NCBI GenBank assembly: GCA_001820685.1
Contig: MHQP01000013.1
Coordinates: forward strand, 1 to 36,140
Length of the DNA stretch: 36,140 bases
Origin: Candidatus Sungbacteria bacterium RIFCSPLOWO2_01_FULL_47_32
GTDB taxonomy: Bacteria > Patescibacteriota > Minisyncoccia > Sungbacterales > GWA2-42-14
Direction: 5' to 3'
Position numbers and translations under genes: made by a program. The notes below the pieces were generated by a model. It made no database searches and had not been told where the DNA came from. It saw only the letters and a program-made list of their open reading frames with translations. Positions 19,249 to 20,213 of this stretch are shown here, piece by piece; the stretch's first letter is position 1, and the number at the start of each line of letters is the position of its first letter.

Positions 19249-19623
19249 ATGGCCGATATAGTGTTAGTTTCAGTATCATTCCTAAGCCTCGGCGGGGTTG
19301 TCTATATGATTTCACGGAAAATTCCTTTTCTTTTGGCTATTCCGGAAAGTATCATAGACGAAAGTTTTGTTACAAAACCTTCAAAACTGAAAGTTTTTCT
19401 TGAGAGGATACGGACATATGTTCTGGGGAGGGAATATGAAGAACCGATTCTGGCGTTCGCCGAATGGTTGCTCCGGAAGATCCGGATAGCCCTGCTTCGT
19501 TTTGAGCATCGGTCGTTTGCTGTATTGAAATTTATTCAGGAGCGAAGGCGCCATCTCAAAATACCGAAAGACCAGAGGGATTACATGGAATCAATGAAGG
19601 CTGAAGAAGATGATATAAAATAG
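19249..19623 (+). CDS. Basic protein with N-terminal membrane anchor
   Basis: 124 residues. An N-terminal hydrophobic helix (about 3-20) is followed by a strongly basic, helical body with many Arg and Lys (for example 'LLRKIRIALLRFEHRSF') and an acidic end. The orientation is probably C-terminus in the cytoplasm, by the positive-inside rule (inference). No family is recognised. It directly precedes the tRNA island and is divergent from the gene at 18548-19141. Confidence 0.55.
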   Translation: MADIVLVSVSFLSLGGVVYMISRKIPFLLAIPESIIDESFVTKPSKLKVFLERIRTYVLGREYEEPILAFAEWLLRKIRIALLRFEHRSFAVLKFIQERRRHLKIPKDQRDYMESMKAEEDDIK

Positions 19624-19715
19624 CGAGTTTGCCGGCCAGCAAATCAGTGTCTGCACTCATTTTGCGCCGTGGCCCCCCAAGCCACCTTAGCTCAGCGGTA
19701 GAGCAACTGTTTTGC

Positions 19716-19812
19716 TTGTCCCGTTAGAGCCGACCTAGCTCAACGGCAGAGCAACGGTTTTGTAAACCGTAGGTTCCGAGTTCGAATCTCGGGGTCGGCT
19801 CTAACGGGATAA
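19716..19812 (+). repeat. 20-bp extended stem carrying tRNA-Thr
   Basis: 19716-19728 pairs with 19800-19812 over 13 bp (one G-T wobble), continuing directly into the 7-bp acceptor stem (19729-19735 with 19793-19799). The tRNA thus sits at the tip of a 20-bp uninterrupted stem. Confidence 0.85.
19729..19800 (+). tRNA. tRNA-Thr (anticodon TGT)
   Basis: A complete cloverleaf: acceptor GCCGACC/GGTCGGC, D-arm GCTC/GAGC, anticodon stem ACGGT/ACCGT with loop TTTGTAA (anticodon TGT, reads ACA), variable loop AGGTT, T-arm CCGAG/CTCGG with TTCGAAT, discriminator T at 19800. CCA is not encoded. The flanks are complementary and would extend the acceptor stem, which may affect end processing. Confidence 0.9.
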
Positions 19813-19890
19813 ATAGGTCGCGAGTTCGAATCTCGCCTTCGGCTCCAGGCAAATTTTTACAAAATCTGGATAAAGCGTGGGTCCTCGGTT

Positions 19891-19920
19891 TCCGCCAGAG
19901 GCGGATCCGCCCCTGGCGGA
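19891..19920. repeat. 30-bp GC-rich near-perfect palindrome
   Basis: TCCGCCAG (19891-19898) and CTGGCGGA (19913-19920) enclose the palindrome GGCGGATCCGCC (19900-19911), with one A/C mismatch between. It lies between two tRNA genes and has no T-run. Confidence 0.75.
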
Positions 19921-19983
19921 CAAATCATCCTGCGGCAAGCAGTCAAGAGCGGCTTTGATAGCACAGTAGGCGAGCGTTCGGTT

Positions 19984-20006
19984 ATTTAAAATTTATAATT
20001 TTAAAT
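19984..20006 (+). promoter_or_regulatory. AT-rich inverted repeat with -10 box before tRNA-Tyr
   Basis: ATTTAAAAT (19984-19992) and ATTTTAAAT (19998-20006) are 9-bp inverted arms. TATAAT at 19994-19999 is a fitting -10 for the tRNA starting at 20016. I see no good -35. Confidence 0.45.
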
Positions 20007-20015
20007 TATAGTTAT

Positions 20016-20099
20016 GGGCGGTTCGCATAGCGGCAATTGCATCTGGCTGTAGACCAGACGTCCTTACGGACTACGGGGGTTCGAGTCCCTCACCGCCCA
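20016..20099 (+). tRNA. tRNA-Tyr (anticodon GTA)
   Basis: Acceptor GGGCGGT/ACCGCCC, anticodon stem TCTGG/CCAGA with loop CTGTAGA (anticodon GTA), a long class II variable arm (CGTCC..GGACTACG region), T-arm with TTCGAGT and discriminator A. CCA is not encoded. Confidence 0.92.
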
Positions 20100-20109
20100 T
20101 TGAATATAA

Positions 20110-20213
20110 CCGTGCAAAGCACGGCTATGATTCGGTCGTGAGGGACGAGAAGGGAAGTCCGGGGGACTTCCCCGGGTTCCGCTGAGGAAGCGGAACGAGT
20201 CCCTCACCGCCCA
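20110..20213 (+). ncRNA. Structured RNA candidate next to tRNA-Tyr
   Basis: A hairpin CCGTGC/GCACGG (20110-20124) is followed by a three-way junction. The closing stem GTGAGGGAC (20138-20146) pairs with GTCCCTCAC (20199-20207) and encloses a 9-bp hairpin (20152-20160 with 20164-20172) and a 7-bp hairpin (20177-20183 with 20189-20195). The 3' strand of the closing stem lies in an 18-bp exact copy (20196-20213) of the tRNA-Tyr 3' end (20082-20099). Confidence 0.45.

Follow-up and report, generated by a model that had tools for sequence, protein, structure and literature searches.

A three-layer nest of tRNA-Thr genes and the miniature inverted-repeat elements that carry tRNA genes in Patescibacteria

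Introduction

Transfer RNA genes are used as markers that evolve slowly and are inherited vertically, and are regarded as fixed components of the machinery of the code. The locus described here raises the question of how a complete tRNA gene came to lie within the severed anticodon loop of another, held between complementary arms. It belongs to Candidatus Sungbacteria bacterium RIFCSPLOWO2_01_FULL_47_32, whose genome of 1.15 Mb includes the window, a term used here for the whole stretch of DNA that was analyzed (36,140 nt, contig 13). A preliminary description offered four explanations: an intron-like element, a split-tRNA-like junction, nested insertion with decay, and an assembly fault. Loci in this genome and its relatives are designated below by L and a number.

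Results

The tRNA-Thr locus of the window

The inner tRNA-Thr(UGU) is intact, scoring 69.9 bits against Rfam RF00005, and was also called by ARAGORN. It is the sole Thr(UGU) gene among 34 tRNA matches in the genome. Its arms, TTGTCCCGTTAGA and TCTAACGGGATAA (19716-19728 and 19800-19812), add 13 base pairs, one of them a G-U, to the 7-bp acceptor stem, which thereby reaches 20 bp. The predicted RNA fold of 19681-19847 has a free energy of -75.4 kcal/mol (z = -6.0), which none of 200 shuffled sequences equalled. The covariance models, fold and ARAGORN call thus agree with the inner gene, arms and 20-bp stem as they had been proposed. The parts of the locus are as follows.

19681-19714, + strand: remnant of the oldest tRNA-Thr(UGU), now dead: its 5' half, positions 1-34, severed in the anticodon loop; assigned by identity to the L017 tRNA
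19715-19719, + strand: left end motif of the element, CTTGT, common to the tRNA-bearing copies L105, L108 and L141 and to the GIY-YIG element L370
19716-19728, + strand: left terminal inverted repeat, TTGTCCCGTTAGA; the arm recurs at 80 tRNA places and in 127 sampled tRNA-free elements
19729-19800, + strand: cargo, the intact tRNA-Thr(UGU)
19800-19813, + strand: right terminal inverted repeat and end motif, TCTAACGGGATAAA, overlapping base 73 of the tRNA
19814-19847, + strand: 3' half of the layer-1 (second dead) tRNA-Thr with encoded CCA, its 5' half lost; assigned by identity to L007 and kept in L154
19866-19874, + strand: degraded right end, CTGGATAAA, left by an older element whose cargo was the layer-1 tRNA; L154 has the same motif at the same position, L007 a similar motif
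19875-19891, + strand: decayed 3' half of the layer-2 (oldest) tRNA-Thr, partner of 19681-19714; matches L019
19891-19920, no strand: small palindrome, rich in GC and unrelated, within the T-loop of the dead half of layer 2; recognized from its sequence

The element measures about 94-100 bp; its interior is taken up by the tRNA and holds no open reading frame. Across 19560-20120 the covariance search recovered a tRNA as its only accepted match. A group I intron was among the candidates sought there and was rejected, the only other match being a sub-threshold sRNA (E 0.19).

The outer halves had been described as another tRNA-Thr whose acceptor strands do not match. Both are real tRNA-Thr halves, as their identity to tRNAs of relatives demonstrates, and the mismatch is real as well, but they come from two genes rather than one. 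The 5' half is identical at 34 of 34 bases to positions 1-34 of the intact tRNA-Thr(UGU) of L017. The 3' half, with its encoded CCA, is identical at 30 of 31 bases to the inner tRNA of L007. The acceptor strands fail to pair because the halves derive from two different, successively broken tRNA genes. The 5' half properly belongs not with the adjacent 3' half but with a second, more decayed 3' half at about 19875-19891 that the first description had overlooked, with 15 of 16 bases matching positions 39-54 of the intact L019 tRNA-Thr.

The window is therefore a three-layer nest, and its layers 1 and 2 are shared with L154, a locus from a genome labelled Liptonbacteria that has the same downstream layers and a related inner tRNA. 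The 5' half, the 3' half next to it and the worn partner farther downstream point to a succession in which an element carrying a tRNA of type B broke a gene of type A, and an element carrying type C then broke B. The present element is the one that carried type C into B, and the 5' half of B was subsequently lost. Direct reading of the L154 inner tRNA shows a compensatory change in the acceptor stem relative to the window (A4-U69 to C4-G69), as expected if the inner gene is functional. Other nests are found at L108, a double nest of tRNA-Leu, and at L004, where two 3' halves of Thr(CGU) stand one after the other.

Among the alternatives first offered, nested insertion with decay is the one that holds, with halves left by two dead genes. 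The arms recur in independent assemblies, and two ordinary tandem tRNA genes without arms, which would have spoken against nesting, were not seen in the relatives. Element-free relatives have a single ordinary tRNA-Thr(UGU), in several cases beside a tRNA-Tyr. Among the relatives examined, no recent insertion with an empty site at strain level was found.

The arms as ends of a mobile family

The arms of the window are the terminal inverted repeats of a family of short mobile elements, CCCGTTAGA...TCTAACGGG, present in many Patescibacteria and in some other phyla. A search of 384 genomes of the window's class for CCCGTTA-N70-100-TAACGGGATAAA gave matches in 33, and the reversed control gave none; a pattern one base longer is found on 118 contigs from GTDB genomes, with Omnitrophota, WOR-3 and Planctomycetes among them. 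Aligned copies have CCCGTTAGA...TCTAACGGGATAAA in common and differ in their interiors, and the ends can be summarized as CTTGY-CCCGTTAGA...TCTAACGGGR-TRAA, about 100 bp overall. The first set contained 130 distinct dispersed copies with common terminal inverted repeats, and the window element, at about 100 bp, has no coding capacity. By these features the repeat-bounded elements are MITE-like.

Most copies contain no tRNA. None of 127 such tRNA-free elements that were tested lies inside a tRNA, and three merely abut one. Carriage by viruses was considered and rejected: two viral contigs bear the repeats, and in neither do they enclose a tRNA.

Candidates of other kinds were considered and rejected. 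Integron attC cassettes have a GTTAGA...TCTAAC core, but the copies here are single palindromes and are accompanied by neither arrays nor an integrase. A REPIN mobilized by a Y1/RAYT transposase was set aside since the repeats enclose none of the 30 Y1_Tnp genes of relatives.

tRNA-bearing elements across the class

The locus is more than a chance arrangement, as the same arms surround tRNAs at 80 places in related genomes. A T-arm followed by the right repeat was found in 80 of 384 genomes of the class, compared to about 25 for the reversed pattern. Defining a tRNA-bearing element as a complete tRNA between arms with at least eight of nine pairs, we retained 80 distinct elements after retrieval. 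Positions 1-9 of the arms are paired in 76-80 of them, and position 8 varies yet still pairs (G-C in 59, C-G in 8 and A-T in 8 of the 80). Ten isotypes are represented among the cargo: Thr, Ala, Leu, Pro, Val, Arg, Gly, Gln, Ile and Ser.

Flanking sequences were scored, element by element, against a panel of tRNAs and called tRNA-like when they went beyond shuffled sequences. Sixty-two of the 80 have tRNA-like outer flanks, the flanks of the remaining 18 being too decayed to call. Outer sequence and cargo are of one isotype in 59 of the 62, against a mean of 10.3 and a maximum of 23 in 20,000 trials of label shuffling, a test that is optimistic because the genomes are related and the cases are not independent. 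Since ten isotypes are affected, one shared event cannot account for the matching. Two of the three exceptions are near ties (L002 and L284), and in the third (L340) the outer sequence is an adjacent tRNA-Tyr. Outer and inner tRNAs are co-oriented throughout, with no antisense case.

The usual break removes a few bases of the anticodon loop: outer 5' halves stop at about positions 30-36 and 3' halves restart at about 35-44. Other sites are the D-loop (L319, L351, L318), the stretch between the D- and anticodon stems (L108) and the variable/T region (L323). In the tRNA-Arg elements L323, L319, L326 and L337 the break falls in the D-loop or in the variable region rather than in the anticodon loop, so its position depends on the type of tRNA.

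In other classes of the phylum, the T-arm and repeat pattern appeared in six of about 90 genomes, which is not above the reversed control, and the tRNA-bearing form is thus concentrated in the class of the window. One tRNA-bearing case outside the class is L141, from Microgenomates. The window's own genome has further tRNAs between such repeats at L199 (G000:C6:871-1020) and L321 (G000:C45:11903-11997), namely tRNA-Arg(UCU) and tRNA-Leu(CAG).

GIY-YIG genes as a possible mobilizer

The window element itself encodes no GIY-YIG nuclease. Elsewhere, however, pairs of the CCCGTTAGA repeat bound single GIY-YIG open reading frames of about 85 aa, identified by PF01541 matches (L140, L143, L361, L364 and L373), and the window's genome retains a decayed one within the same repeats (L200). 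In the first five the right repeat encodes the C-terminus of the nuclease and its stop codon (SLTG*), which ties the repeat to the coding sequence. The six GIY-YIG elements of the CCCGTTAGA type have no obvious location inside tRNAs.

Inverted repeats flank 22 of 45 GIY-YIG genes of relatives vs. 2 of 22 Y1 transposase genes, and a tRNA lies within 150 nt of 7 of 30 GIY-YIG loci vs. 0 of 30 Y1 loci. Eight loci show the order broken 5' tRNA piece, GIY-YIG gene, complete copy of the same tRNA:

L362 and L394 (Asn): GIY-YIG genes at 1404-1713 and 330-644
L376 (Lys): GIY-YIG gene at 1501-1823
L384 (Ser): GIY-YIG gene at 1409-1737
L388 (Met): GIY-YIG gene at 471-811
L397 (Gln): GIY-YIG gene at 364-687
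L370 (Phe) and L402 (Val): the same order of parts

In the six loci given with coordinates, the gene starts inside or just past the broken 5' tRNA and ends right before the complete copy. Judging from this layout, loci of the L362 type may represent a nuclease element that regenerates its own target, with the same break-and-replace logic as in the window and the nuclease aboard. The window's genome has a decayed version of this order (L404, G000:C24:1203-1655), in which a decayed GIY-YIG gene is flanked by one partial and one complete tRNA-Ala(CGC), and at L370 the GIY-YIG element sits in the D-loop of tRNA-Phe with ends CTTGT...ATGAAG. Other inverted-repeat families, among them CCCCACACCTAATT, CCCACACATAAC and CCCCCACCTATCAAGG, each surround one GIY-YIG open reading frame (L368, L367, L370, L375, L382, L389, L392, L400, L401, L402). 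Apparently they form one superfamily of nuclease elements in which each family has its own ends, and a small GIY-YIG nuclease is the likely mobilizer of the tRNA-bearing elements.

Discussion

Proposed break and replacement

We consider it probable that the locus is the work of a miniature inverted-repeat element that breaks tRNA loops and persists by carrying a replacement tRNA of the same isotype, moved in trans by a GIY-YIG nuclease. Its anatomy, its recurrence, the matching of isotypes, the co-orientation and the three-layer succession are all matters of observation. The remaining steps are proposed. A nuclease from full-length relatives with the same repeats would cut or nick the loops of tRNA genes, and the element would enter the break, destroying a resident and usually single-copy tRNA. 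The cell would survive because the element brings a working replacement. Being divergent, this replacement may in turn become the next target, so that nested dolls accumulate. A bolder version, in which GIY-YIG-driven elements attack essential single-copy tRNAs throughout Patescibacteria, spread by means of the recoded replacement and successively exchange the tRNAs of the host for mobile ones as a natural insert-and-rescue system, is put forward tentatively, at slightly less than even chances. The replacement in that version would be either an entire tRNA flanked by the inverted repeats or, where a nuclease gene is aboard, the missing 5' half following that gene.

Alternative explanations

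The strongest rival invokes selection only: the elements, some with a captured tRNA, insert blindly into hairpin loops, and within tRNAs only those insertions survive in which the cargo takes over from the broken tRNA under the same promoter. This would yield the 59 matches among 62 and the lack of antisense cases with no homing at all. It also gains from two features of the loci. The D- and T-loops hold other small palindromes too, and no match to a sigma-70-type promoter lies upstream of the tRNA-Thr, so that the cargo may have a promoter of its own or depend on the outer one. However, isoacceptors with C34 are often dispensable through wobble reading, and the targets include such tRNAs (Ala CGC, Pro CGG, Leu CAG, Val CAC). 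In such tRNAs an insertion lacking cargo ought to be survivable, but the 127 cargo-free elements include none inside a tRNA. The GIY-YIG genes with broken and restored tRNAs likewise point to active targeting, and we regard selection without targeting as unlikely, if still worth serious attention.

Local duplication would dispense with a mobile tRNA. An ordinary repeat element would have entered the tRNA gene, and duplication or template switching would have added the intact copy, in which case isotype match and orientation come free. L004 indeed has a local duplicate, identical in sequence, of a 3' half and right arm. Against this, inner and outer tRNAs mostly differ in the acceptor and the T-arm, on both strands. 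Moreover, the same types appear at different levels of different nests: the inner Ala type of L245 resembles the outer one of L280, and the inner Thr type of L007 is the one that matches layer 1 of the window at 30 of 31 bases. We judge this explanation improbable.

Archaeal split tRNAs have complementary arms at the break, and a break in the anticodon loop flanked by such arms recalls them. Were the outer halves joined in RNA, whether as a split tRNA or around an intron-like element, they would form a second functional tRNA and the inner gene would be a by-product; in L260, L264, L338 and L341 the outer halves do still pair. In the window, however, the acceptor strands are unpaired, and two halves from different dead genes cannot make one tRNA. 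Bases have been lost or replaced at the outer-loop junctions, and breaks occur in the D-loop or variable region elsewhere (L319, L351, L323). There is no match to an intron family, and the arms belong to a mobile family that mostly lacks tRNAs. Both the split-tRNA and the intron-like readings of the preliminary description are thus very improbable. An assembly fault, conceivable in a draft of 48 contigs that is probably metagenome-assembled, is hardly credible when the same arms and class of cargo recur across many relatives, each assembled independently, and L154 shares layers 1 and 2.

Comparison with known systems

Like MITEs, including palindromes of the REPIN/BIME type, the window element is about 100 bp long, ends in inverted repeats, has no open reading frame, is dispersed and is presumably moved in trans. 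Unlike them, it carries an apparently working tRNA of the isotype of its broken target, and unlike in REPIN/RAYT systems its repeats are absent from the Y1/RAYT genes of relatives and present at GIY-YIG genes. Elements with tyrosine integrases enter tRNA genes, often in the anticodon region, and leave a functional tRNA by means of an identical attP segment. Insertion into a tRNA gene that leaves a working tRNA is common to both, but an integrative element was rejected here: the element is about 100 bp with inverted ends and no open reading frame, integrase and direct att repeats are absent, and what replaces the broken tRNA is an entire divergent gene lying inside it.

SegB of phage T4 is a free-standing GIY-YIG homing endonuclease that homes into the T4 tRNA gene region, and thus offers a GIY-YIG nuclease tied to tRNA genes and to the gain of a tRNA region (PMC2988022). 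SegB lies between tRNA genes (PMC2988022), whereas the elements here break the tRNA itself and have perfect inverted repeats; the window element, moreover, bears a complete replacement tRNA in place of a nuclease. The rRNA genes of CPR bacteria hold insertions that include GIY-YIG-encoding non-intron ones and short uncharacterized ones, and so share with our elements the bacterial group, the stem-loops of a structured RNA as sites and GIY-YIG reading frames outside introns (PMC11270868). The differences are the tRNA targets, the replacement tRNA and the nested succession, and that study makes no mention of tRNA (PMC11270868). The engineered home-and-rescue gene drive, based on Cas9 in flies, also hits an essential gene and carries a recoded working copy as cargo (PMC7968924). 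That drive is engineered, while the present case is natural and bacterial, with a putative homing step. On balance the window element is a variant of a MITE-like element rather than a proven homing element. In open-access full texts, the scope of our search, we found no published description of tRNA-carrying elements of this kind.

Implications

In these genomes mobile elements both carry tRNA genes and break them, and at one and the same place a tRNA is repeatedly replaced by another of its isotype. If the proposed mechanism is correct, the elements would be a testable natural counterpart to engineered home-and-rescue drives, and many of the small GIY-YIG genes of Patescibacteria may have found a role. 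The nests also suggest why tRNA finders and annotation overlook the broken outer tRNAs. Finally, replacement could be a route by which foreign tRNA variants displace resident ones, for example variants that escape tRNA-cutting toxins.

Small palindromes in dead tRNA halves

A separate observation concerns small palindromes. The one at 19891-19920 reads TCCGCCAGAGGCGGATCCGCCCCTGGCGGA, and in L154 a similar palindrome occupies the T-loop of the dead tRNA half of layer 1. The D-loop of dead 5' halves very often contains a short GC-rich palindrome such as CCTGCCTGCCGGCAGGCAGG; examples are found in L362, L394, L376, L397, L384, L105, L067, L008 and L007. It is as if short palindromes favored the loops of dead tRNAs, or were tolerated only there.
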